Source: an uncultured Coriobacteriaceae bacterium | GTDB taxonomy: Bacteria; Actinomycetota; Coriobacteriia; Coriobacteriales; Coriobacteriaceae | NCBI GenBank assembly: GCA_944321435.1 | Contig: CALULH010000005.1 | Location: 62,001-126,000, forward strand | Length of the DNA stretch: 64,000 nt | Direction: 5' to 3' | Shown here: one piece after another, positions 25,188 to 64,000 of the stretch | How positions within the stretch are numbered: the first letter of the stretch is position 1 | How the letters are laid out: every line of letters begins with the position of its first letter | Program-made: the position numbers and the translations under genes | Notes under the pieces: generated by a model | Database searches by the model: none | What the model saw: only the letters and a program-made list of their open reading frames with translations | What the model was told of the DNA's origin: nothing

Positions 25188-26059
25188 TGCGCCTCTCCCC
25201 TCTCGGCGCGCGCGGCGGCGCGGGCTTCGGCAGACGATTCCAACGCGTCGGTCCGCACAGGGCCGGCCGCGTCCTCCACGGCGCGGCACGCCAGCACGCC
25301 GGCCACATGGCGGCGGTAGCGCTCGCTCGCCCACATATTGCCCGAGAAGGGCAGCGTCCGGGCCGCGTCCGCAAGGGCTTCGAGCTCTGCCGGCGCGGGC
25401 TCCGCGGAAAGCGGCGTCGCGACCAGCCGCGCCCTGCCGGGACGGGCCCCCACGGCCACGCGCCAGCCGCCGCCTTGCGCGTAAACGGCGCAGGCGCTCG
25501 CCACGGGAAAGTCGGTCGACTGGTTGCGCACGGCCTGGTAGCTTGCCCGTACGGGACCGGCCGGGACGATGACGCGTGTCAGAACGTCGCGCAGGCGGCC
25601 CTGTCGGGCGAGAAGGTCCTCCATGGGCAGGCGGCCGGCTCCGACCAGCTCCGCATGCGCGCCCAGCGCCAAAAGCGCGCAGCACACGTCGGAGAAGCCG
25701 AAACGCCCCGCCACGCTGCCGCCAACGGTGGCCACGTTGCGGAACTGCACCCCCACGATATCGCGGACCGCGCGGGCGAGAAGACCGTCGGTTGCCGCCG
25801 CGAGCTCGGCGCTTCGCTCAAGCTGGCGCAGCGTTACGTACGCGCCGATGCCCAGCGCCCGCCCGAACACCGGGTCGTCGTCGATCGGCTCGACGGTGTC
25901 GAGCGCGCAGTCGGCAAGGTCGATGGCAACCGGGATCGTGCCCGTGCCCAGCCTGAGCCATGCGCCGCCGCCCAGCACGCAGGCGCGCCGGTTTTGCCGC
26001 ACGAGCTCGTAGGCCTCCTCAACGCTGCCCACGCGCACGTACTTGCCCATAGAAAGCAT
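25184..26059 (-). CDS. xdhB: xanthine dehydrogenase, FAD-binding subunit
   Basis: FAD subunit of about 291 aa (CoxM/PCMH type). Signatures are ACVLGGGAWL (phosphate loop), FRNVATVGGSVAGR (FAD contact) and the C-terminal CO-dehydrogenase flavoprotein domain (PARTLPFSG-like, with SERYRRHVAG). The ATG at 26059 is chosen because AAAGAGGGGAG precedes it; in-frame starts further up lack sites. It is the first gene of the three-subunit operon, and the dyad at 26097-26119 lies just upstream. Confidence 0.9.
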   Translation of the reverse strand: MLSMGKYVRVGSVEEAYELVRQNRRACVLGGGAWLRLGTGTIPVAIDLADCALDTVEPIDDDPVFGRALGIGAYVTLRQLERSAELAAATDGLLARAVRDIVGVQFRNVATVGGSVAGRFGFSDVCCALLALGAHAELVGAGRLPMEDLLARQGRLRDVLTRVIVPAGPVRASYQAVRNQSTDFPVASACAVYAQGGGWRVAVGARPGRARLVATPLSAEPAPAELEALADAARTLPFSGNMWASERYRRHVAGVLACRAVEDAAGPVRTDALESSAEARAAARAERGEAQ

Positions 26060-26096
26060 GCGTCTCCCCTCTTTGACGAGCGCCCTCATTATGTTG

Positions 26097-26119
26097 GCTA
26101 ACACGCGAATGCGTTTAGC
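26097..26119. promoter_or_regulatory. dyad operator upstream of xdhB
   Basis: GCTAACACGC-gaat-GCGTTTAGC is a palindrome 38 bp upstream of the xdhB start, overlapping the likely promoter (CATAAT on the minus strand nearby). Its half-site CTAAC/GTTTAG resembles the ends of the CTAACAAAAAGTTTG repeats at ygeX. A shared regulator is possible. Confidence 0.5.
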
Positions 26120-26249
26120 ATACCTTGTGCGCGGGGAATGCGCTCGCCACAAGCCCTGGCAAGGGCCCGCGGTGCCGCAAAAAGCTACAACTCACCACGT
26201 AAGAGAGCGGTAGCGCACCTAGCTCGATTTTATTTGTACATGAGAATAA

Positions 26250-36115: not shown

Positions 36116-36724
36116 TCACTCCTTGCGGCCCGCCAGCACGCGCTCGGCGCACGCAAGATCCTCAGGCACGTCCACGTCCAAGAGCTCGTCGGGCCCCAGC
36201 GCCTCCACCAGCGCCACGCGCTCCTCGCCCGCAAGCACCGAGCGCCCGCCGTCCTGCCCATCGAGCGCCATCAGCGCGCCGAACAGGCGGCGCGGAAACA
36301 GCACCGGGCTCGCCGGGACCCCTTGCCAGGACAGGCGCACCGGCACCTCGGGCTGGGCGAGAAACGCGGTGCGGATGGCCCGGAAGCTCTCGGGGCGCAC
36401 AAGCGGCTGGTCCCCGGGCAGGAACAGGCATCCATCCCAACGCGCCGCCCCGTACAGAAGCCCGGCGCGCACCGAAGCGCTGCGCTCGGCGCCGCCGTGC
36501 AGCACGCAGGCCAAGCCGCGCGCCGCGCACGCCTCGGCCACTTGGGGCCAGCGCGTCGAGACCACGCACGCAAAGCCGCCCTCGAGCGCGGTGGGAACCG
36601 AGAGGGCCGTGCGCGCCACCAGCGGCTCGCCGTCGAGTGGAGCCAGGAGCTTGTTGCCCCCGCCGCCCGCCGCGGCAAAACGGCGCCCCGACCCGGAAGC
36701 CATTGTCACGCAGCCTATGAGCAC
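36116..36724 (-). CDS. mocA: molybdenum cofactor nucleotidyltransferase (MocA/YgfJ-like)
   Basis: Nucleotidyltransferase of 202 aa. The N-terminal signature is MASGSGRRFAAAGGGGNKLL, and LFLPGDQPLVRP provides the metal-binding block. Family members attach CMP (or a related nucleotide) to molybdopterin for hydroxylases; YgfJ homologues are linked to selenium-dependent enzymes. The GTG at 36724 is the start, with GGGAGGCG upstream. It sits in one transcription direction with the hydantoinase and carbamate kinase genes. Confidence 0.85.
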   Translation of the reverse strand: MLIGCVTMASGSGRRFAAAGGGGNKLLAPLDGEPLVARTALSVPTALEGGFACVVSTRWPQVAEACAARGLACVLHGGAERSASVRAGLLYGAARWDGCLFLPGDQPLVRPESFRAIRTAFLAQPEVPVRLSWQGVPASPVLFPRRLFGALMALDGQDGGRSVLAGEERVALVEALGPDELLDVDVPEDLACAERVLAGRKE

Positions 36725-36850
36725 GGGCGCCTCCCTTCCGCGGGCCTTCAGCCGGGCACCCTGCGCCCGGCGTGCGTTCCGGTCCCATTGTACCCGCCGG
36801 CCCGCCTCGACCCCGTCGGCGACCGGGGCCGTCGCAGCCCCCGCGCGGGC

Positions 36851-37792
36851 TCAGCGCGTGATGCGCGTGCCCGTCTTGCCGGCGATCCCGTCGCGGGCCT
36901 TCTCCAGAAGCGTGATGAGCGCCTCTCTCCCCTCGCCCGACTCCACAAACCGCGTGCAGGCCTCGACCTTGGGCTTCATCGAGCCCTCGCCGAACTCGCC
37001 GGCGGCGGCCAGCGCCCGGGCGCGGGGCGCAGTAAGCTCGTCCAGCCACTCCTCGTGCTCGGTCCCAAAGCCCACGGCCACTTTCTCCACCGCGGTGAGG
37101 ATGATGAGCGTGTCGGCACCCAGCTGCTCGGCGAGCTTCTCGGCCGCAAAGTCCTTGTCGATCACCGCCGCAGCGCCCTTGAGGTGAAAGCCCTCGGTGG
37201 GGAGCACGGGGATGCCGCCCCCGCCGCAGGCGATGACGATGTGCCCTGACTCGAACAGCGTGCGGATGGTGTCGATCTCCACGATGGCGCCGGGAAGCGG
37301 GCTCGCCACCACGCGGCGGTACCCCTTCTGCGGGTCGAACATGAAGTCGTACGCGCGCTCGTCGCGCAGCGCCCGGGCCTCCTGCTCGCTCATGAACGAG
37401 CCGATGGGTTTGGTGGGATGCGCGAAAGCCGGGTCGTCGGGGTCGACCTCCACCTGGGTGAGGACCGTGGCCACTCCTTTGTCTATGCCGCGGCGCAGCA
37501 TCTCCTCGCGCAAGGCGTTCTGCAGGTCGTAACCGATATAGCCCTGGCTCATAGCGCCGCAAACGGAAAGCGGGCAGGGAATATAGCGCTCGGGATCCGA
37601 GCGCGTGAGCTCGGTCATGGCGTTGGCGATCATGCCGACCTGCGGCCCGTTGCCGTGCACGATCACCACCTCCTTGCCCTCCTCGATGAGGTCGACGATG
37701 GCGCGCGCCGTGCGCTGCACGGCGACCATCTGCTCGGGCAGGTTGGATCCGAGGGCGTTGCCGCCCAGGGCGATGACGATACGCTGGGTCAT
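36851..37792 (-). CDS. arcC: carbamate kinase
   Basis: Enzyme of 313 aa converting carbamoyl phosphate and ADP to carbamate and ATP. Conserved blocks are IVIALGGNAL, VIVHGNGPQVGMI, VIACGGGGIPV and ILTAVEKVAV. The ATG at 37792 follows GAAAGGGGAG. Placed after ygeW, a carbamoyltransferase, it would harvest ATP from the carbamoyl phosphate formed in purine breakdown (equivalent to YqeA in Escherichia coli). Confidence 0.95.
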   Translation of the reverse strand: MTQRIVIALGGNALGSNLPEQMVAVQRTARAIVDLIEEGKEVVIVHGNGPQVGMIANAMTELTRSDPERYIPCPLSVCGAMSQGYIGYDLQNALREEMLRRGIDKGVATVLTQVEVDPDDPAFAHPTKPIGSFMSEQEARALRDERAYDFMFDPQKGYRRVVASPLPGAIVEIDTIRTLFESGHIVIACGGGGIPVLPTEGFHLKGAAAVIDKDFAAEKLAEQLGADTLIILTAVEKVAVGFGTEHEEWLDELTAPRARALAAAGEFGEGSMKPKVEACTRFVESGEGREALITLLEKARDGIAGKTGTRITR

Positions 37793-37876
37793 GGGGCTCC
37801 CCTTTCAGATGCGCGGCTGCTCGCCCCCATAGGTGCCTTGCGGGCCGACGGCCCTCCGCGCTTCGACGAGAACGAC

Positions 37877-37921
37877 GAATGCCCGGGACGATGCGCTTGT
37901 CGCGCACCCACCCGGGCATTC
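37877..37921 (-). terminator. hairpin between ygeW and arcC
   Basis: GAATGCCCGGG and CCCGGGCATTC form an 11-bp perfect stem around a 23-base loop. It follows ygeW on the minus strand without a clear T run, so it may be an attenuating or processing structure within the operon. Confidence 0.55.
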
Positions 37922-40808: not shown

Positions 40809-42032
40809 CTATGCCTCCGGCGCAGGGTACGCGCCGTCCCATACCACTTTGCGGTAGTTAACCGGATCCGTGTCGCCCTCGGTCGAGAAGAGCAGCACCG
40901 AGCTCTCGCCGGTGAGCCCGATCGCCTCGCGCAGGTCCGCGTAGGCGGGGTCGGTCATCACGGTGGCGATAAGCCCCGCGCCCACCGCGCCGGACTCGCC
41001 GGAAATCACGCGGGGGTCGCCGGCGAGCGGGGCGCCGAGCACACGCATGCCGCGCGCCGCCACCCAGTCGGGGCAGGACACGAAGACCTTCACGTGGTTG
41101 CGCAGGATGTCCCAACCCAAGATGTTGGGCTCGCCGCAGGCAAGGCCCGCCATGATGGTGGGCATGTCGCCGTCCACGATGCGGGGCTCCCCGTCTCCGG
41201 CCACGGCGCCCTTGTACAGGCACGCGGCCTCGGCGGCCTCCATCACCACGAAGGTCGGCGGGTTGTCGGGGAAGCGGTTTGCGAAGTAGCCCACCACGGC
41301 GCCCGCGAGCGAGCCCACGCCCGCCTGCACGAACACGTGCGTCGGGCGCTCGACGCCTGCGGCGGCCAGTTGCTCGGCCGCCTCGGAGGCCATGGTGCCG
41401 TAGCCCTCCATGATCCAGCTGGGGATGTCCTCGTAGCCCTCCCACGCGGTGTCCTGCACGATGACGCCGTTCTCGCATGCGTCGGCCTCGGCGGCCGCCA
41501 TGCGCACGCACTCGTCGTAGTTCACGTCCTCGATGGTGACCTGGGCGCCTTCCTTGGCGATATTGTCGAAGCGGCTCTTCACGCTGCCCTTGGGCATGTG
41601 CACCACGGCCTTCTGGCCGAGCTTGTTCGCCGCCCATGCCACACCGCGGCCGTGGTTGCCGTCGGTGGCGGTGAAGAAGGTTGCCTGGCCGAAATCGCGC
41701 TTGAGCTCCTCGCCCGTAAGGTAATCGTAGGTCATGGCCGAAACGGGCTTGCCGGTTTTGCCGGCGATGTAGCTCGCCATGGCGAAGGACCCGCCCAGCA
41801 CCTTGAAGGCGTTGAGCCCGAAGCGGTAGCTTTCGTCCTTCACGGCCAGCGCGCCGAGCCCGAGCTCGTCGGCCAGCGCGTCCAGCTTGGCGAGCGGCGT
41901 CACCGCGTACTGCGGGAAGCTCTCGTGGAAGGCGCGCGCCTCGGCTACGCGCTCCTCCGCCATGATGGAAAGGTGCGCGTCGTCGCTCCCCTCCATGCGG
42001 TTGAGCGCCCACTTGATCGTTTGGTCGGCCAT
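40809..42032 (-). CDS. ygeX: diaminopropionate ammonia-lyase
   Basis: PLP enzyme of 407 aa splitting 2,3-diaminopropionate to pyruvate and two ammonia. The PLP lysine is Lys77 in GLNAFKVLGG, the glycine loop binding PLP phosphate is AGVGSLAGA, and TDGNHGRGVAWAA is a fold-type II signature. The ATG at 42032 has AAAGGAGACG upstream. It heads the ygeX-ygeY-ygeW-arcC run and is divergent from the YheO-type regulator, with shared repeats in the gap. Confidence 0.95.
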   Translation of the reverse strand: MADQTIKWALNRMEGSDDAHLSIMAEERVAEARAFHESFPQYAVTPLAKLDALADELGLGALAVKDESYRFGLNAFKVLGGSFAMASYIAGKTGKPVSAMTYDYLTGEELKRDFGQATFFTATDGNHGRGVAWAANKLGQKAVVHMPKGSVKSRFDNIAKEGAQVTIEDVNYDECVRMAAAEADACENGVIVQDTAWEGYEDIPSWIMEGYGTMASEAAEQLAAAGVERPTHVFVQAGVGSLAGAVVGYFANRFPDNPPTFVVMEAAEAACLYKGAVAGDGEPRIVDGDMPTIMAGLACGEPNILGWDILRNHVKVFVSCPDWVAARGMRVLGAPLAGDPRVISGESGAVGAGLIATVMTDPAYADLREAIGLTGESSVLLFSTEGDTDPVNYRKVVWDGAYPAPEA

Positions 42033-42150
42033 GTGCCCTTCGTCTCCTTTGGTTCGCATCGCGGGGCGGAACGCGGGCAGGCGGCGCAGTGCGCCGGGCG
42101 GCCCGCTTAACCGCCCTCCTTCCTGTGAGGCAAATTATTTATCCGTTTGC

Positions 42151-42165
42151 CTAACAAAAAGTTTG
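42151..42165. promoter_or_regulatory. direct repeat CTAACAAAAAGTTTG, copy 1
   Basis: 15 bp identical to 42292-42306, 118 bp upstream of ygeX in AT-rich DNA. AAC-AAAAA-GTT gives it partial symmetry. It is a likely regulator site for the divergent ygeX promoter. Confidence 0.6.
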
Positions 42166-42193
42166 TTACTGACGTTTTACCATAGGAGAATCA

Positions 42194-42221
42194 GGCATCA
42201 CAAGACAATTTGTCTGATGCC
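42194..42221. promoter_or_regulatory. imperfect palindrome in ygeX-regulator gap
   Basis: GGCATCA and TGATGCC-type arms flank GACAA/TTGTC, with three extra bases on the left side. It is centred between the two 15-bp repeats and could be an additional operator. Confidence 0.45.
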
Positions 42222-42291
42222 GCGAACGGATGGTTTGCAACGGTAAACGGTCTATTATTTGTGAAGAGCGCATATGCATGGTAGAAGGTAA

Positions 42292-42306
42292 CTAACAAAA
42301 AGTTTG
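42292..42306. promoter_or_regulatory. direct repeat CTAACAAAAAGTTTG, copy 2
   Basis: Second exact copy, 80 bp upstream of the regulator start. GTAA and TTAC flank it, extending the dyad. The two copies, one near each divergent gene, suggest joint control of ygeX and autoregulation. Confidence 0.6.
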
Positions 42307-42385: not shown

Positions 42386-43045
42386 ATGACCACCGGACAG
42401 ATAGACTTCTACCAGCGCCTGGCGCGCACGCTTGCCATGGAGTTCGGACCGAGCTGCGAGGTGGTGGTGTACGACCTCGAATGCACCGACATGGACCGCT
42501 CCATCGTGGCGATCGAGAACGGCCACGTAAGCGGGCGCGGCTTGGGTGCCGGACCGTCGCACGTGGTTCTGGAGGCCCTGCAGGGCGCTCCCGCGGCGCT
42601 TGAGGATCGCCCGCCCTACTTCACCAAGACGGCCGACGGCAAAACGCTCAAGTCGAGCACGCTGTTCATCCGCAACGACGAGGGCAAGCCGGTGGGCGTG
42701 CTGGCCATCAACTACGACATCACGCTCATGGCGGCCATGGCCTCGGAGCTCACGGCCTTCGTGCAGACGCGCGGCGAGGGCGCCTCGAACGAGCCCGAGG
42801 AGATCACCCGCAACATCGCCGACCTCCTGGAGGACCTGCTCGAGGAGAGCGTGCGCTACGTGGGCAAACCCGCGGCGCTCATGACCAAGGAGGACCGCGT
42901 GCGCGCCATCGGCTACCTGGATCGGCGCGGAGCCTTCCTCATCAGCAAGTCGAGCGAGCGCGCCTGCGAGTTCTTCGGCATCTCCAAGTACAGCTTCTAC
43001 TCTTACCTGAACGAGGCCAAGGCCGCGGCCGACGCCAGCGCCTAA
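42386..43045 (+). CDS. YheO/DauR-type PAS-HTH transcriptional regulator
   Basis: Regulator of 219 aa. The N-terminal YheO-like PAS domain (about 8-115) includes FGPSCEVVVYDLE and FIRNDEGKPVGVLAINYD. The C-terminal helix-turn-helix (about 160-215) includes AIGYLDRRGAFLISKSSERA and FFGISKYSFYSYL. In other bacteria this family controls amino-acid or D-amino-acid genes in response to small ligands. Here it is divergent from ygeX across a repeat-bearing gap, so a purine or diaminopropionate sensor is inferred. The ATG at 42386 follows AAGGAGGGG. Confidence 0.88.
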   Translation: MTTGQIDFYQRLARTLAMEFGPSCEVVVYDLECTDMDRSIVAIENGHVSGRGLGAGPSHVVLEALQGAPAALEDRPPYFTKTADGKTLKSSTLFIRNDEGKPVGVLAINYDITLMAAMASELTAFVQTRGEGASNEPEEITRNIADLLEDLLEESVRYVGKPAALMTKEDRVRAIGYLDRRGAFLISKSSERACEFFGISKYSFYSYLNEAKAAADASA

Positions 43046-54850: not shown

Positions 54851-57595
54851 TTACCTGCGGTAGTAGCTGTGCGCAAGCGGCAAGCTCGTCTGCAGCTCTC
54901 CCGTGAGGGCTCGGTAGGCGTTTTGCACTGCAGGCGCCGTTGGGATCGAGGCGATCTCCCCAATGCCCTTTCCGCCGTAAGCCACGTCCAAGAGCTCGTC
55001 CTTCTCGACGCAGATAGCGTGGATGCGGGGGATGTCCGGAGCGCGGAAGAGCCCGAGCGTGCCGAACTTCACCTGCGGCACGCAATCCTCGAGGTCGAAG
55101 CGCTCGGTGAGCGCGTAGCCCATGCCCATGAGCACGCCGCCCTCGATCTGACCCTGGATGGCGATGGGGTTCACCACGCGCCCGGAATCGTGCGCGGCAT
55201 GGACCTCGGTCACGCGGCCATCGTCGTCCAGGATCACCACGTGCGTCGCGTAGCCGTAAGCCACATGGCTCTTAGGATGCGCGACATCCGCGCCGAGCTT
55301 GTCGGTCTTCTCCAGGTACTCGTAGGAGAACGAGCGGCCCTCGAGCATAGCCAGCGCCGCCGCCGGATCGGACGCATGGCAGTCCGCCCCCGGGCCCGCA
55401 TAGGGCGTGTCGTCGGCGTACTCCACGGTGAGGCCGTCGCCATGCGCGGCCACCGCGTCTGGGACCTCCGCTCCCCCCTCCGCCGCAAGCATGGCGTCGC
55501 GCAGCAAAAACGCCGCGCCGCGCACGGCCTCGCCGGTGATGAGCGTCTGACGCGACCCTGAGGTGGTACCCGAGTCGGGTGCGCGCTCGGTCGAGCACTC
55601 GCCGTTGGCGATGCGCGCGAGCGGCAGCCCCGTGGCCTCGGCCACGTCCTGCAGAAACACCGTGTTGCACCCCTGGCCGATATCGGACGTAGCGGAGTAA
55701 ACCACGGCGCGCCCGTCCTCCACGCGGATCGTGCAGCGCCCGGCATCGGGCAGGCCCACGCCCACGCCCGCGTTCTTCATCGCGCACGCGATGCCGGCGT
55801 GGCCGGGATGCGCCTCGTAGGCGTCGCGCACCGCGAGCAGCGTCTCCTTGAGCGCAGTGGAGCGGTCGGCGATCTGCCCGTTGGGCAGCGCCTTGCCTGG
55901 TTCGATGGCGTTGCGGTACCTGATCTCCCACGGCGAGATGCCCACCTCGTCAGCGAGAAGGTCGATGAGGCTCTCGAGCGCGAATACGCTCTGACATACG
56001 CCGAAGCCGCGGAACGCGCCGGCCGGCGGGTTGTTGGTGTACCAGCCATAGCCGCGGATATCGGTGTTCTGGTAGCAGTACGGCCCCACGGAATGCGTGC
56101 ACGCGCGCTCCAAAACCGGGCCGCACAGGCTCGCGTAGGCGCCGGTATCGAAGTTGATCTCGCAGTCCAGGCCCACGAAGGTGCCGTCCTCGTCGCAGCC
56201 GAGCGTGAAGGTGCCCTCCATGTAATGGCGCTTGGGATGGAAGTTGATGGACTCCTGGCGAGAAAACCGGCACTTAACCGGCCGCCCCACCGCAAGCGCG
56301 GCAAGCACGGCCAGATGCTGCGCGGATACGTCCTCCTTGCCGCCGAAGCCGCCGCCCACGAGCATGGTCTGAACGACCACGCGCTCCGGGGCGTCGTCCC
56401 AGCCGAGCATGTGGGCGATCTCCTTGCGGGAGTCGTAGGCGCCCTGGTCGGACGAGCAGACCTTCACGCCGTCCTTGTACGGGAAAGCCACGGCGCACTC
56501 CGGCTCAAGGAAGGCGTGCTCGGTGAACGGGGTCCTGAAGGTGCGCGTCACCTTGTGCGCGGCGCCCGCGAGCGCCGCGGCGGCGTCGCCGCGGACCACG
56601 TGGCGGCTCTGGCAGACGTTGCCCTCGGGTGTGACCCAGCTGCCGAAGGCGAGGTAGGGCTTGTGGAGGACGGGCGCGTCCGGGCGCCGCGCCTCCTCGA
56701 TCGAGCGCACGGGCTCGAGCACCTCGTACTCGACCTTGACGGCCCTCTTGGCCTTCTCGAGCGCAGCTGCGTCCTCGGCCACCACGAGCGCGACGGCATC
56801 GCCCACGCAATGCGTGACGTCGCCCTCGGCGATCATGACGTCCCAGTCGTAGACCAGGTGGCCCACGGCGTTCACGGGCACGTCGGCTGCGGTGAGCACG
56901 GCCAGAACCCCGGGCATCGCACGGGCCCTCTCGGCGTCTATCCTGACCACGCGGGCGCGCGGGTGCCTGGAGCGCACCGCGCCCGCGTAGGCGAGGTCGG
57001 GGAAATCGCGCTCGTCGATGTCGTCGGGATACCTGCCGTAGCCGAGCACCTTCTGCCGCACGTCCACGCGGAAGGCGCGCTTGCCCACGCCGTAGTCGTC
57101 CCCGCGCTCGAGCGCCGGATCGATGCTCTTCTCGCCCCTCAGGACGGCGGCGGCCAAAAGGATGCCCTCGATGATCTTCTGGTAGCCGGTGCAGCGGCAC
57201 ACGTTGCCGCGGATGGCCTCCTTCACCTGGTCCTCGCTGGGATCGGGCTCGCAGGCGATAAGCGCGGCGCCCGCCATGACCATGCCGGGGATGCAGAAAC
57301 CGCACTGCACGGCGCCCACCGCGCCGAAGGCGTAGACAAAGGCCTCGCGCACCTGCTCGGGCAGCCCCTCGACCGTCACGATGTCGCGACCGCAGGCGAG
57401 CTCGGTCGTGAGGACGCAGGCCTTGACGGCAACCCCGTCGACGTGCACGGTGCAGGTGCCGCACGCACCCTCCGAGCAGCCGTCCTTAGCCGAATGTATG
57501 TGCAGGTCGTCGCGCAGGTAGCGCAGCAGCGGCTTGTTAACGGCGCATGTGCGCTCGACGCCGTTCACCCGGAAGGTGTAGCCCTTACCGCTCAT
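54851..57595 (-). CDS. xdhD: XdhD-type molybdenum hydroxylase (fused Fe-S and Mo domains)
   Basis: Enzyme of 914 aa. The N-terminal domain holds two [2Fe-2S] sites: Cys40, 45, 48, 60 and Cys98, 101, 133, 135. The C-terminal molybdopterin domain has GGGFGGKED, AGAFRGFGVCQS and the active-site Glu in GKGIGEIASIP. No FAD subunit is fused, and no ygfM-like gene is seen. This is the XdhD class linked to selenium-dependent purine oxidation or reduction. The ATG at 57595 follows GAGGAGG, and a ferredoxin gene is 12 bp upstream. Electrons may go through that ferredoxin. Substrate is probably xanthine, urate or a relative. Confidence 0.92.
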   Translation of the reverse strand: MSGKGYTFRVNGVERTCAVNKPLLRYLRDDLHIHSAKDGCSEGACGTCTVHVDGVAVKACVLTTELACGRDIVTVEGLPEQVREAFVYAFGAVGAVQCGFCIPGMVMAGAALIACEPDPSEDQVKEAIRGNVCRCTGYQKIIEGILLAAAVLRGEKSIDPALERGDDYGVGKRAFRVDVRQKVLGYGRYPDDIDERDFPDLAYAGAVRSRHPRARVVRIDAERARAMPGVLAVLTAADVPVNAVGHLVYDWDVMIAEGDVTHCVGDAVALVVAEDAAALEKAKRAVKVEYEVLEPVRSIEEARRPDAPVLHKPYLAFGSWVTPEGNVCQSRHVVRGDAAAALAGAAHKVTRTFRTPFTEHAFLEPECAVAFPYKDGVKVCSSDQGAYDSRKEIAHMLGWDDAPERVVVQTMLVGGGFGGKEDVSAQHLAVLAALAVGRPVKCRFSRQESINFHPKRHYMEGTFTLGCDEDGTFVGLDCEINFDTGAYASLCGPVLERACTHSVGPYCYQNTDIRGYGWYTNNPPAGAFRGFGVCQSVFALESLIDLLADEVGISPWEIRYRNAIEPGKALPNGQIADRSTALKETLLAVRDAYEAHPGHAGIACAMKNAGVGVGLPDAGRCTIRVEDGRAVVYSATSDIGQGCNTVFLQDVAEATGLPLARIANGECSTERAPDSGTTSGSRQTLITGEAVRGAAFLLRDAMLAAEGGAEVPDAVAAHGDGLTVEYADDTPYAGPGADCHASDPAAALAMLEGRSFSYEYLEKTDKLGADVAHPKSHVAYGYATHVVILDDDGRVTEVHAAHDSGRVVNPIAIQGQIEGGVLMGMGYALTERFDLEDCVPQVKFGTLGLFRAPDIPRIHAICVEKDELLDVAYGGKGIGEIASIPTAPAVQNAYRALTGELQTSLPLAHSYYRR

Positions 57596-57890: not shown

Positions 57891-59591
57891 TTAGCCCAGC
57901 AGGTAAGCGTAGTTGTCGCGAGCGGCCTGGATCACGCGGCGCACGTCGTCCGGCAGCCCGCAGGACTCGTCGTCCACGTCGAACGTCCCCGAGACCTCCG
58001 CCAACCGCACGCGGAACGTGCCGTCGGCGAGCTTGAGGAAGCCCTCGTTGTCGCTCGCGTCCATATCCCCCTCGCTCCAGAATACCGTGAGTTTGCCCTT
58101 GTAGGGACGGCCCTCGTAGGGGCAGAACACGGCGCAGTTGCCGCATTCGTTGCACATGCCGTCCACGTGCAGGATCTGCTTGCGCTTGAACCCGGGCACG
58201 TCGAGCAGCACGTTCGCGCGGTTGGGGCACACCGTCACGCAGGCCCGGCACGCCAGGCAGTCCAGAAGCGGCAGCGCGGCGGGAAGCGAGCGCTTGCCCT
58301 GCGCGCGCTCGGGGCGGCGGTACGCGTCGCCCGCAACGCAGGCCTCGTCGAGCGCGACCACCGCCGCAACGTCCACGCGCCGGCGGCTGACGTTCTCGAC
58401 CGTGCCCACGTTCTCGGCCATCTTGGCAAAGCGATCGTAGCCCGTGGGCCTCAGCAGTGCCGTGGCGAGCGTCACCGGCCAAATGCCCGCATGGTAAAGG
58501 TCGGCGATGTTGTTCTCGTCCGCGCCGGCCGAGAAGGAGATGTGGACCTTGCCCTCGAAGCGCTCGGCGATGCGGCGCACCACCGCGATGGCGAGCGGGA
58601 ACAGCGCCACGCCCGACATGTACATCTGGTCGGCGGGCAGCTCGTTGTACGTGACGTTCACCGGCAGGGTGTTGCACACCTTGATGCCGAACTGCCGGCC
58701 GTTGGACTTGGCCACCTCGATCAGGCGGCGGAACATCGACTCGGCGTCGTCCCACGCGAGGTCGTTCTCAAAGCTCGAGCGCTCCATGGAAAGCGCGTCG
58801 TAACCCAGGCTGTCGAGGCGGCTGCGCACGAAATCGTAGCCCATGAGCGTGGGGTTGACCTTCACGCAGGTGTCGAGGCCCTTCTCGGTCAGCAGGTAGG
58901 AGACGATGGACTCGATCTCGCCGGCAGGGCAGCCGTGCATGGTCGACACGGTCATGGAGGTGCTCACCTTGGGCGAGATGCCCTCCACGAAGGCGGCGTC
59001 CACGTACTCGAAGCGGTCGAGGTTGGCAAGCGCCCAGGAGCGACATTCCTCCCAGGCGGGCGTGGCGCTCGCGTCCTTGAGGCCCTCGATGAAGCCGTCG
59101 ACCTTTGCGCTCTTGATGCCGGCGAGGTCGTAGCCCACGCTCATGTTGAAGATGAAGCCGTCGTCGGCGCCAAGGCCCCACTCGCGCGACAAAAGCTTGC
59201 AAGCGAACCAGCCCTTGACGTACTCGGCCTGGGCGTCGGCGCAGGTGAGCTCGGTGGACCACTCGCAGTTGTAGCACACGTCGCCCGGGGCGATGCAGGG
59301 CTTGGGAATGCAGGCCGAGAGCTCGGCGCCGTCCATGACCTGCACGGTCTTGAGCTCGAAGAAGCGCGCTCCCGCCCAGTACCCGGCCACGAGGTTCTGC
59401 GCGAGCTGGGTGTTGGGGCCGGCGGCGGGGCCGAACGGAGCCTCGATGCGCCCGCCGAACAGGTCGATCCCGCTCCCCGGGGCGTACGACGCGCTGCGGC
59501 GCACGCCGAACACGCTCCCCTGCCGCTCGTGCTCGGTCAGCGCCCAGTCCATCAGCTGCCCAAAGGGCATGGGCTTCATAACGTCACTCAT
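57891..59591 (-). CDS. ygfK: YgfK-like protein, short form lacking the FAD/NAD(P)H domain
   Basis: Protein of 566 aa. The N-terminal TIM-barrel part resembles dihydroorotate/dihydropyrimidine dehydrogenases and YgfK (APFGPAAGPNTQLAQNLV, FELKTVQVMDG, KVNPTLMGYDF). The C-terminus has two ferredoxin-like clusters (CLACRACVTVCP, CNECGNCAVFCP). YgfK proteins are usually near 1000 aa with a GltD-like FAD/NAD(P)H domain between these parts; here they are joined directly. It may use the adjacent small ferredoxin instead of NAD(P)H. The ATG at 59591 has GAGGGGAG upstream. The 'selenate reductase' label of the family is not adopted. Confidence 0.88.
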   Translation of the reverse strand: MSDVMKPMPFGQLMDWALTEHERQGSVFGVRRSASYAPGSGIDLFGGRIEAPFGPAAGPNTQLAQNLVAGYWAGARFFELKTVQVMDGAELSACIPKPCIAPGDVCYNCEWSTELTCADAQAEYVKGWFACKLLSREWGLGADDGFIFNMSVGYDLAGIKSAKVDGFIEGLKDASATPAWEECRSWALANLDRFEYVDAAFVEGISPKVSTSMTVSTMHGCPAGEIESIVSYLLTEKGLDTCVKVNPTLMGYDFVRSRLDSLGYDALSMERSSFENDLAWDDAESMFRRLIEVAKSNGRQFGIKVCNTLPVNVTYNELPADQMYMSGVALFPLAIAVVRRIAERFEGKVHISFSAGADENNIADLYHAGIWPVTLATALLRPTGYDRFAKMAENVGTVENVSRRRVDVAAVVALDEACVAGDAYRRPERAQGKRSLPAALPLLDCLACRACVTVCPNRANVLLDVPGFKRKQILHVDGMCNECGNCAVFCPYEGRPYKGKLTVFWSEGDMDASDNEGFLKLADGTFRVRLAEVSGTFDVDDESCGLPDDVRRVIQAARDNYAYLLG

Positions 59592-59670: not shown

Positions 59671-61023
59671 TCAGTACGCGCGGCCGTTGAGCCTCTCCCA
59701 GAGCAGCTTTGCCTGCTCGAGCGTCCAGGCGTTGATGCGCTCCTCGTCGATGCCCACGAACGCGCGATCGCGGTAGAGCACGCGCCCGTTGACGATGGTG
59801 GTGCGGCAGCTCCGGCCCATCATGCCGAAGAGCATGTGACCGTCGACGTTCTCATCTGAGAACGGCGTGAAGAACGGGTAGTCCATCACGATGACGTCGG
59901 CCGCCGCGCCCGGCTTGAGCGCGCCGATCTCGCGTCCGAAGTACGCGCTCGCCATGGCGGGATTGTTCTGGAAGAGCATGCCCATGTCCTCGGCCCAGCC
60001 CACGTTGGGCATGGCGGCGTTGTGCCGCTGCGCGATGATGAAGACCTTCAGGCTCTCGAGCATGTCGTGGGTGTAGGCGTCGGTTCCCAGGTGCACGGGG
60101 ATGCCGCGGCGCCAGAACTCGAGCACCGGCGCGATGCCTACGGCGTTGTTCATGTTGGACTCGGGGTTGTTGACCACGTGGGTGCCCGTCTCCTTGATGA
60201 TCTCCATCTCGGCGGGCGTGACGTGGATGCAGTGCCCGAGCATCGTGCGCGGGCCGAGAAGCCCGTGCTGCAGCAGCCGCTCAACCGGCGGGATGCCGCC
60301 GCGCTTCTCGCGGGAATCCCAGACGTCGTTCATGCCCTCGCAGACGTGGATGTGAAAGCCGGTGAGACCCGCGTTGGCCTCGGCCATCTTGTCCATCGTC
60401 TCGTCGGAGAGCGTGAAGGTGGCGTGCCCGCCGAACATCGCAGCGATCATGTGGTTGCCGGAGGACTGCCGCTCGGCCGCCCAGCGGGCGAACGCGGCGT
60501 TCTCGGCGATGGCCTGGTCGCGCTTCTCGTCCCCGCGGCGGTCGGAGGTCTCGTAGCAGAGGCATGCGCGGATGCCCGTCTCCTCGGCCACGTCCTTGAT
60601 CGCGAAGAGGGAGCCCGGGATCTCGCAGAAGCTCGCGTGGTGGTCGAAGATCGTGGTCACGCCGTTGCGCAGGCTCTCCAAGATGGTGGCGTAGGCGCTC
60701 GCGCGCGTGCCGTCGAGCGTGAGGTTGTCATCGATCTTCCACCACTGCTGCTCGAGGTTCTCGAGGAAGTTGCGCGGATCGCAGCCCTTGATGGAAAGGC
60801 CGCGCGCCAACCCCGAGTAGATGTGAGTGTGGCAGTTCACCAGGCCCGGCATGATGACGCCGCCGCGCGCGTCCACGTACGCAGCGTCCGGGTACCGCTC
60901 TTTAAGGGCGCTCTCCTCGCCCACGCAGGCGATCAGCTCGCCGTCGATGGCGACCGCGCCGCGCTCGATGTAGGGGCGCGCCGGATCGCGGGTGATCACA
61001 CGCCCGTTACCCACCAGCAACAT
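59671..61023 (-). CDS. ssnA: SsnA, amidohydrolase-family aminohydrolase
   Basis: Metal-dependent amidohydrolase of 450 aa in the chlorohydrolase/guanine-deaminase group. Metal ligands are NCHTH (His65, His67), then HIHVCEG, GHCIHV and GTDAYTHD. In purine clusters SsnA is thought to remove or cleave an amino/ring group of a purine intermediate; the exact reaction is unsettled. The ATG at 61023 follows AGAAAGGAG. It is 79 bp ahead of ygfK in the same direction. Confidence 0.92.
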   Translation of the reverse strand: MLLVGNGRVITRDPARPYIERGAVAIDGELIACVGEESALKERYPDAAYVDARGGVIMPGLVNCHTHIYSGLARGLSIKGCDPRNFLENLEQQWWKIDDNLTLDGTRASAYATILESLRNGVTTIFDHHASFCEIPGSLFAIKDVAEETGIRACLCYETSDRRGDEKRDQAIAENAAFARWAAERQSSGNHMIAAMFGGHATFTLSDETMDKMAEANAGLTGFHIHVCEGMNDVWDSREKRGGIPPVERLLQHGLLGPRTMLGHCIHVTPAEMEIIKETGTHVVNNPESNMNNAVGIAPVLEFWRRGIPVHLGTDAYTHDMLESLKVFIIAQRHNAAMPNVGWAEDMGMLFQNNPAMASAYFGREIGALKPGAAADVIVMDYPFFTPFSDENVDGHMLFGMMGRSCRTTIVNGRVLYRDRAFVGIDEERINAWTLEQAKLLWERLNGRAY

Positions 61024-61107: not shown

Positions 61108-62499
61108 CTAGCGGTCGCGCGCCACGTCGGGTTCCTCGCGGGCAGCCGCGGCCTCAGCCTCGGCCTCGGCGTCCTTGGGCAGCACGAGGTTCAGGATGAT
61201 GGCAACGATGGCGGAGACCACCAGCTCGGAAGCGCCGAAGACGCTCGAAACCCACTCGGGCATGCCGGGGCCGGCAAGGCAGCCGGACACGTGGTAGATG
61301 CCGAGGCCCAGCGCGATGGAGGTGCCCACGATGAGCTTCTTGCGCGGGGTGAAGCCGCCTTCGATGATGAGGTCGAGGCCGCTGACCGTGATGGTGGCGA
61401 AGACGCCGAGCACCGCGCCGCCGATGACCGGCTGCGGAATGCAGGTGAGCAGCGCCGCCAGCTTGGGCAGGAAGCCCGCGACGATGAAGACGAGGGAGGC
61501 GAACGTGAACACGAGGCGGTTCTTCACGCCGTTGGAGATGATGATGCCGGTGTTCTGCTCGTAGGTCGACTGGGGCACAGCGCCGATGAACGCGCCGAGG
61601 ATCGACATGATGCCGAGCGAGACGATGCCGCCGGTGTATTCGCGGCTCGTGGGGATGCGGTGCTCGACCGCGTTGGTGGTCATGGCCACGCCGCCCATGT
61701 TCTGCAGGCAGTTGACCACGTAGACGATGGCCGCCGTCGCCATGGCGGCCGGCGCGAAATCAAGTCCGAAGTGCATGACGCCGGGCACGGAGAACCATCC
61801 GGCGGCGGACAGGTTGCCCAGGTCGAGCATGCCGAAGGGGATGGAGACAATGGTGCCGATGATGATGCCGAACAGCAGCGAACCCTGGCTCAGGATGCCG
61901 GTGGTGAAGTTGGTGAGGATGAAGACCACCACGAGCGTGACGAGAGCGATGAGCCAGTTGAGCGGGCTGCCGAAATCGGGGGCGCCCTCGCCGCCGGCCA
62001 TCCAGCGAATGGCGATCGGGTAGAGCGACAGGCCGATGGTGAAGATCACGGTGCCGGTGACGACTGCCGGGAACAGATGCTTGATGTACTTGATGAACAG
62101 TCCCACGACCACGGCCACGATGCCGCCCACGATCTCGGCGCCCAGGATGGTGCCGATGCCGAAGTCGGCGCCGATGGTCTGGAACACGGGCACGTAGGCG
62201 AAGGCCGCGCCCATGATGATGGGCAGGCCCGTTCCGATGCGCCCGAAGAGCGGGAAGAGCTGGATGAGCGAGGCGATGCCCGTCATGATGAGCGAGGCCT
62301 GGATGAGCAGGGTCTCATCGGCTGCGGAGAGCCCGCAGACGCCGGCGATGATCATAGCCGGCGCGACCACGCCCATGGCCGAGGCCAGCACGTGCGAGAG
62401 CCCCAAGGGCACGATCTGCACCAGCGAGGGCCTTCCCTCCCAGGTGAACAGCGGGTTCTTCTCGTCCGCTGCTTGCGTTGCGGTGGCTTTGTCGGACAT
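61108..62499 (-). CDS. NCS2-family uracil-xanthine permease
   Basis: Transporter of 463 aa with about 14 membrane segments. NCS2 signatures are GAVPQSTYEQNTGI (NAT motif region), IPQPVIGGAVLGVFATI and NCLQNMGGVAMTTNAV. It imports purines or pyrimidines with protons. The first gene of the ssnA-ygfK-ferredoxin-xdhD block, it starts at the ATG at 62499 (GAGAGGAG upstream). Urate or xanthine is likely from context, not proven by motif. Confidence 0.93.
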   Translation of the reverse strand: MSDKATATQAADEKNPLFTWEGRPSLVQIVPLGLSHVLASAMGVVAPAMIIAGVCGLSAADETLLIQASLIMTGIASLIQLFPLFGRIGTGLPIIMGAAFAYVPVFQTIGADFGIGTILGAEIVGGIVAVVVGLFIKYIKHLFPAVVTGTVIFTIGLSLYPIAIRWMAGGEGAPDFGSPLNWLIALVTLVVVFILTNFTTGILSQGSLLFGIIIGTIVSIPFGMLDLGNLSAAGWFSVPGVMHFGLDFAPAAMATAAIVYVVNCLQNMGGVAMTTNAVEHRIPTSREYTGGIVSLGIMSILGAFIGAVPQSTYEQNTGIIISNGVKNRLVFTFASLVFIVAGFLPKLAALLTCIPQPVIGGAVLGVFATITVSGLDLIIEGGFTPRKKLIVGTSIALGLGIYHVSGCLAGPGMPEWVSSVFGASELVVSAIVAIILNLVLPKDAEAEAEAAAAREEPDVARDR

Positions 62500-62700: not shown

Positions 62701-62737
62701 AATAATAATTTCTCATTTCTGATAAGAATTTATTATT
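62701..62737. promoter_or_regulatory. AT-rich palindrome upstream of permease
   Basis: AATAATAATTTCT and AAGAATTTATTATT form an imperfect inverted repeat about 200 bp upstream of the permease ATG, in GC-rich surroundings. It probably contains the promoter and an operator. Confidence 0.45.
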
Positions 62738-62788: not shown

Positions 62789-62801
62789 ACAGATAATCTG
62801 T
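62789..62801. promoter_or_regulatory. perfect 13-bp palindrome ACAGATAATCTGT
   Basis: Exact dyad around a central A, 288 bp upstream of the permease start and beside the CTAAAAGTTT stretch. Candidate regulator site. Confidence 0.45.
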
Positions 62802-62951
62802 TTGCTTTGCTAAAAGTTTTTCTGTTCACACCGTTCGCAGGCGCTTTCCTACCGTTGGCGCAGGGGCCTTGTGCAAAGCCCCGCTGCGCGCGGCCCGCCC
62901 CTGCCGCTCTAACGCCGTCGGCTTGCGGCAGGACCGCATACGGCAAGCGCA

Positions 62952-63220: not shown

Positions 63221-64000
63221 CTAATCCTCGGAGTTGTCGTCGGGCACGATGAGGTTCAGCACGAAGACCACGAGGAAGGCGACCATGAGCGAACTGCCTA
63301 GGATGTTCTGCGCAAGCTGGGGCATGAACTGCAGGATGCTCGGCACGGTCTCGATGCCCACGCCCAGTGCCAACGCAACGCCCACGATCATGCGGTTGCG
63401 GTAGTTGAGCGGCTGCTCGGAGATCAGCTGGATGCCCGAAAGCGTAATGGCAGCGAAAACGGTCACGGTAGCGCCGCCGAGCACCGGCTGCGGGATGGTG
63501 GCCATGAGGGCCATGAGCTTGGGGCAGACGCCCGCCAGGAGCATGATGACGCCCACGATGGCGAACACGCGCTTGGCCACGACCTTGGTGGTGCAGATGA
63601 GGCCCACGTTCTGGCTGTAGGGGTCGGTGGGCAGGCCGCCGATGACCGCGCCGATCATGCCGCAGATGCTTTGGCCCTTGATGGCGCCGCCGAGCTCCTT
63701 GTCGGTGGCGTCGCGGCCGAAGCCGCCCATGGCGGTGGAGGACACGTCGCCGATGGTCTGGACGGCCTGGACCACGTACATGAGTATCATCATGATGATG
63801 GCGTCCAGATGGAACTCGAGCCCAAAGTGGAAGGGCAGCGGCACGGAGAAGAACGCCGCGTCAGCCACGTCGGAGAAGTCCACGATGCCGCCCATGACGA
63901 GCGCGATGGCGTAACCCACGACGATGCCGACGATCATGCCGGAGACCTTGAGCAGGCCCTTGCCGAACAGGCTGCACGCCAAGGTGACCGCGAGCGTCAC
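63221..64000 (-). CDS. NCS2-family uracil-xanthine permease (partial, C-terminal)
   Basis: C-terminal part (about 259 aa) of a second NCS2 transporter; the gene starts beyond the right edge. Visible blocks are QAVQTIGDVSSTAMGG, GGLPTDPYSQNVGLICTT (NAT motif region) and IPQPVLGGATVTVFAAITL. It is similar to but clearly distinct from the upstream paralogue, so the two may carry different purines. It has its own terminator at 62952-62988. Confidence 0.9.
   Translation of the reverse strand: MTLAVTLACSLFGKGLLKVSGMIVGIVVGYAIALVMGGIVDFSDVADAAFFSVPLPFHFGLEFHLDAIIMMILMYVVQAVQTIGDVSSTAMGGFGRDATDKELGGAIKGQSICGMIGAVIGGLPTDPYSQNVGLICTTKVVAKRVFAIVGVIMLLAGVCPKLMALMATIPQPVLGGATVTVFAAITLSGIQLISEQPLNYRNRMIVGVALALGVGIETVPSILQFMPQLAQNILGSSLMVAFLVVFVLNLIVPDDNSED

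Follow-up and report, generated by a model that had tools for sequence, protein, structure and literature searches.

Putative 15-bp palindromic operators of a YheO-type PAS_6/HTH_22 regulator beside ygeX in an uncultured Coriobacteriaceae bacterium

We propose that two identical 15-bp repeats between ygeX and a divergent YheO-type regulator gene, reg1, belong to a set of at least three operators (O1, O2 and O3) of the regulator encoded next to them, Reg1, and we put the probability of this reading at roughly 0.75. The proposal is drawn from sequence comparison, chiefly from sites of the same palindromic form that recur upstream of reg1 in related genomes. The window is the whole 64,000-nucleotide stretch of DNA that was analysed, and coordinates refer to it.

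The repeat, CTAACAAAAAGTTTG, occurs as exact forward-strand copies at 42151-42165 and 42292-42306, with starts 141 bp apart. One copy lies on the ygeX side and the other on the side of the YheO-type gene, as the sequence-only reading had reported. Allowing up to three mismatches, we found 2 matches in the window, compared with a mean of 0.15 in shuffled sequence (0 of 100 shuffles reached 2), and across the whole of the bacterium's own genome (2.3 Mb), at up to two mismatches, 42151 and 42292 were the only matches. CTAACAAAAAGTTTG is a palindrome and putative operator with the motif CWRAC-N5-GTYWG. We scored sites with a matrix for which 55 Coriobacteriia loci supplied 28 distinct sites and the window's own genome none. 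Its top four sites across the whole window were 42151, 42292, 42202 and 62790, and a matrix made from Atopobiaceae sites only placed the identical four first. The ygeX/reg1 gap thus scored holds three sites, against 0.036 for permuted matrices, and none of about 2000 permuted matrices reached three. Searched as a bare pattern, CWRAC-N5-GTYWG gave 14 matches in the own genome against 8 for the reversed control, and 12 of the 14 fall outside the gap. We viewed eight of these 12 contexts: four were set aside as lying within a long open reading frame (L085, L086, L089 and L093), one as lying between genes (L084) and one as part of a long inverted repeat (L092), while L083 precedes the gene for RNase J.

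Within the gap, O1 (CTAACAAAAAGTTTG, 42151-42165, score 22.5) is the putative operator on the ygeX side; it is joint best in the window and conserved in relatives. O2 (AAGACAATTTGTCTG, 42202-42216, score 17.0) starts 51 bp from O1, ranks third in the window and is a strong site absent from the sequence-only reading. O3 (CTAACAAAAAGTTTG, 42292-42306, score 22.5) is the putative operator on the reg1 side and is conserved near the start of reg1 in relatives. A possible weak fourth operator, CGAACGGATGGTTTG, lies at 42223-42237 (score 8.3), 21 bp from O2; the same position holds better matches in loci L006 and L143, and its standing as a full operator is uncertain because it overlaps a conserved element, B. 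Across ten aligned gaps the order is O1, element A, O2, element B, O3, and the step from O1 to O2 is 51-52 bp in all ten, about five helical turns, with a weak O2 match in L130.

Elements A (42174-42186; GTTTTACCATAGG in the window) and B (42225-42251; AACGG repeats with CGGTAAACGGT) are both conserved in the gap, and further factors may therefore act there besides Reg1. A pattern for element B, CGGTAAACGG, had 15 matches in the genome against 6 for the control, including the promoters of RNase J and of two GntR-UTRA genes. These unrelated promoters rule out element B as a purine-specific site and mean that another, wider regulator may act in the gap. Just beyond O1 toward ygeX is an AT-rich stretch, GATAAATAAT, that by eye could be a -10 box, in which case O1 occupies the position of the -35 box; a sigma-70 scan of the ygeX/reg1 gap found no promoter. 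In two loci of the Collinsella tanakaei type (L139 and L145), some 12-13 bp separate the end of O3 from the start codon of reg1, so short a distance that autorepression is suggested.

The likely binder of O1-O3 is the product of reg1 (42386-43045, forward strand), which carries PF08348 (PAS_6; 115.4 bits, cut-off 27) followed by PF13309 (HTH_22; 56.9 bits, cut-off 29.6); among solved structures we found none resembling Reg1 by sequence. The divergent target is ygeX (40809-42059, reverse strand), a diaminopropionate ammonia-lyase gene (TIGR03528, 617.7 bits, cut-off 532) whose true start may be an alternative one at 42032. Other genes in the window encode YgeY, YgeW, an amino-acid kinase and a dihydropyrimidinase/HyuA-like hydrolase. 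The 313-aa open reading frame of the amino-acid kinase (36851-37792) is a likelier gene than a 585-aa frame (36162-37919), which we treated as spurious because it has no family match and the kinase frame overlaps it in another frame; the kinase is possibly the pathway's carbamate kinase. A second block opens with an NCS2 purine permease (61108-62499, reverse strand; PF00860, 240 bits), which matches pbuX at 355 bits, under the cut-off of 414. Behind the permease are SsnA (59671-61023), a YgfK-like protein (57891-59591) that matches the N-terminal part of YgfK, and a selenium-dependent XDH (54851-57595). The YgfK-like protein is only 565 aa long, and its best stretch covers positions 1-443 of a 1012-position profile; what the long form has beyond this is either absent or encoded elsewhere. 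The first permease shares 41% identity with a second purine permease at 63221-64000, which sits directly upstream of the permease block and continues past the end of the window. The genes of the two blocks are likely counterparts of both halves of the reductive uric-acid pathway, as laid out in the available part of PMC12507026.

The own genome encodes a single further HTH_22 protein, Reg2, whose gene is on contig C20; in the PAS part, Reg1 and Reg2 share 33% identity. The region upstream of this reg2 gene has no CWRAC-N5-GTYWG operator; another palindrome is present there. This second 15-bp palindrome, R2 (ATRAKAAWTTMTYAT), is common to the upstream regions of reg2 and the permease. At the permease it forms a tandem pair, ATAATAATTTCTCAT and ATAAGAATTTATTAT (62702-62736; starts at 62702 and 62722, 20 bp apart), which are likely Reg2 operators. 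ATRAKAAWTTMTYAT had 4 matches in the own genome and 0 for the control, the other two being upstream of reg2 and upstream of a RidA-family gene that adjoins reg2 on contig C20. Across the family we counted 14 R2 sites in 9 of 65 genomes (control 0); judged by coordinates, 12 of the 14 are upstream of the permease, reg2 or ridA, and the others are in G015:C36 and G024:C12. The R2 consensus was drawn by eye, partly from the sites then counted, and the clean part of this test is therefore the absence of matches elsewhere. A role for RidA would suit the pathway, given that 2-aminoacrylate arises from diaminopropionate ammonia-lyase, according to the available part of PMC9127364; a literature search for a link between YheO and RidA returned nothing usable. 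Judging by these sequence matches, Reg2 probably uses its own palindrome to act at the permease.

The permease upstream region also holds sites of the Reg1 type. The sequence-only reading had pointed to a weak similarity there, GCTAAAAGTTTTT at 62809, which turns out to belong to a weak operator match, CTAAAAGTTTTTCTG (62810-62824; score 8.55, or 12.9 with the Atopobiaceae matrix). The better match is one it did not name: the operator-like CAGATAATCTGTTTG at 62790-62804, 20 bp away, which scores 14.6 and ranks fourth in the window under the main matrix and the Atopobiaceae-only matrix alike. A link from Reg1 to the window's permease block is on these matches likely, though not certain. It is possible that the Reg1 regulon stops short of the permease here, in which case 62790 and 62810 would be chance matches in AT-rich promoter DNA and the block would be controlled by Reg2 alone. 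The sites are degenerate (14.6 and 8.55), and 2.2% of column-permuted matrices reach the single-site score at 62790; the score of the pair, by comparison, is reached in 0.3%. The arrangement CAGATAATCTGTTTG-ctttg-CTAAAAGTTTTTCTG (62790-62824) also resembles an Atopobiaceae pair, CTAACAATTTGTCTG-ctttg-ATGAAAATCTGTTAG, in both spacing and spacer, and pairs spaced by 20 bp occur in L144 and L076 as well. The permease upstreams of relatives speak on both sides. We chose 14 representatives from 30 that were fetched: three have very strong sites, two (L184 and L185) have best scores of 10.5 and 10.8, and four (L181, L187, L188 and L189) have best scores below 10, the values being 8.2, 8.4, 5.1 and -1.3. 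Several relatives are without any permease site. Against control by Reg2 alone, a site scoring at least 13.5 is present at each of the five permease orthologues with 88-100% identity (L176-L180, of which two are near twins), and three family genomes (G017, G023 and G043) have near-perfect sites upstream of the permease. The remaining site of the sequence-only reading, GCTAAC...GTTTAGC upstream of xdhB, was rejected: its letters are present at 26097-26119, but the half-sites are differently spaced, and the best operator score in 26041-26194 is 0.4.

To follow the putative operator through relatives, we scanned genome contigs for Reg1 and took the best 80 of 333 loci, comprising 34 of Coriobacteriaceae type, 22 of Atopobiaceae type and 24 of Bacillota type; the counts in this paragraph refer to these best 80. 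The CWRAC-N5-GTYWG palindrome and its variants recur upstream of reg1, with related sites in all 56 Coriobacteriia loci fetched. A score of at least 16 was reached upstream of reg1 in 34/34 Coriobacteriaceae-type and 22/22 Atopobiaceae-type loci, counts that include the training loci, and permuted matrices reached it at a mean of 0.40 and 0.09 loci, respectively. Loss of the motif at ygeX in relatives had been named beforehand as an observation that would count against the single-regulator reading; what we found is that the motif is kept there. The gene divergent from reg1 differs between the groups: it is ygeX in 32/34 Coriobacteriaceae-type loci, a purine permease in 21/22 Atopobiaceae-type loci, where the sites are kept and ygeX was found in 0/22 of the fetched stretches, and SsnA in 22/24 Bacillota-type loci. 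The operator thus accompanies reg1 when the divergent gene switches from ygeX to the permease. None of the Bacillota loci were used in training, and among them a score of 12 was reached in 16/24 (permuted mean 1.26) and a score of 16 in 0/24, leaving 8/24 without a site at score 12; the letters of the Bacillota sites drift to CWAAA-N5-TTTWG.

A strict form of the pattern, CWAACWWWWWGTTWG, had 52 matches in 65 genomes of the family and 4 for the reversed control. Forty-seven of the 52 are upstream of reg1 at a distance of no more than 420 bp, and three of the other five are the permease sites of G017, G023 and G043. A single site in G060 precedes a gene read by eye as feoA and was taken as unrelated, and the last is G063:C8:7565. 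Of the 37 genomes that encode a close Reg1, 31 have sites, as does 1 of the 28 that do not (Fisher's test, 2e-11, without correction for relatedness). The six Reg1 genomes without a strict site are G001, G003, G024, G037, G051 and G052; G001, G003 and G052 have near-consensus sites, and G024 and G037 are without ygeX. The YheO-type protein, suggested as the binder by the sequence-only reading, is favoured by this distribution as the probable one, given that the sites accompany reg1 whether the divergent gene is ygeX or the permease.

We consider it improbable that the palindromes are bound by another factor, such as Reg2 or a global regulator, with the link to reg1 reflecting a conserved gene neighbourhood only. 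Such a factor would fit with the conserved elements A and B that share the gap, element B also being found at unrelated promoters, and with the constant co-occurrence of ygeX and reg1 in the family. None of the 28 genomes that lack Reg1 has ygeX, which means that co-occurrence does not distinguish Reg1 from the cluster as a whole; what speaks for Reg1 itself, and not just for the cluster, are the contexts seen in Atopobiaceae and Bacillota. The operator remains with reg1 where the permease rather than ygeX is the divergent gene, which argues against another factor, and so does the region upstream of reg2 in the own genome, with its different palindrome in place of this operator. That the repeats are chance or a functionless leftover of duplication, as two exact copies confined to one gap might suggest, is refuted by conservation in other genera and families and by the permuted matrices, and we give it almost no weight.

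If Reg1 does read these sites, a dimer would sit on each palindrome. With five helical turns between them, O1 and O2 would act jointly on ygeX, O3 would serve autoregulation of reg1, and the weaker pair spaced by 20 bp would place the permease-SsnA-YgfK-XDH block under Reg1 too. The presumed ligand of the PAS_6 domain is a purine or an intermediate of the pathway. For the sign of control, we lean towards repression relieved by ligand, because O1 is positioned at the putative -35 box and because, in several relatives, O3 is close to the start codon of reg1.

A single regulator joining the two purine blocks, as the sequence-only reading had it, is made plausible by the similar sites at the permease block. 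The number of regulators is probably two rather than one, because a putative Reg2 operator is present at the permease promoter as well. Two YheO-type paralogues with separate operators thus probably control reductive uric-acid breakdown, as judged from their palindromes. In its full form, which we rate at about even odds, Reg1 and Reg2 would read different 15-bp palindromes and meet at the permease promoter: Reg1 would control itself and the block from ygeX onward, Reg2 would control itself and ridA, and both would control the permease-SsnA-YgfK-XDH block through a 20-bp-spaced pair of each. If this is true, uptake and reductive ring opening would be coupled to the later steps and also to the disposal of 2-aminoacrylate, a reactive compound formed by diaminopropionate ammonia-lyase.

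YheO of Escherichia coli and DauR of Pseudomonas aeruginosa are YheO-like PAS_6/HTH_22 regulators. A YheO-like PAS6-HTH flagellar regulator is described in Campylobacter jejuni in the available part of PMC10717218. Reg1 has the identical two Pfam domains, in the same order and above cut-off. A literature search for an operator of YheO-like PAS/HTH_22 proteins found none described, whereas for Reg1 we propose a palindrome of 15 bp, arranged in tandem at 20-bp spacing; if true, this would give the family a concrete operator, that arrangement and a small testable regulon. Reductive uric-acid gene clusters, whose likely counterparts are split here into two blocks, are described in the available part of PMC12507026 by their enzymes and not their regulation (the word "regulator" occurs 0 times there), and the same text links the pathway to host urate levels. 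Our reading, if true, would name a likely switch of this pathway for Collinsella-type gut bacteria. In Clostridioides difficile, the proposed regulon of DioR, an uncharacterised enhancer-binding protein, includes the xanthine permease pbuX according to the available part of PMC11448449, in which a YheO-type protein has 0 occurrences; the purine-permease target is alike, and the class of regulator is different from that of Reg1. No paper that treats a regulator alongside ssnA and ygfK came up in a literature search.

Divergent autoregulated pairs in the style of LysR or TetR have operators between the regulator and its divergent target. The Reg1 sites are also placed between regulator and divergent target, with one near each promoter. 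They differ in that Reg1 belongs to another protein family and in having at least three operators, a fixed step of 51-52 bp and a further site of the regulon at an operon far from the gap. The arrangement would be a familiar one, in which palindromic operators occur both at the promoter of the regulator and at that of its target.
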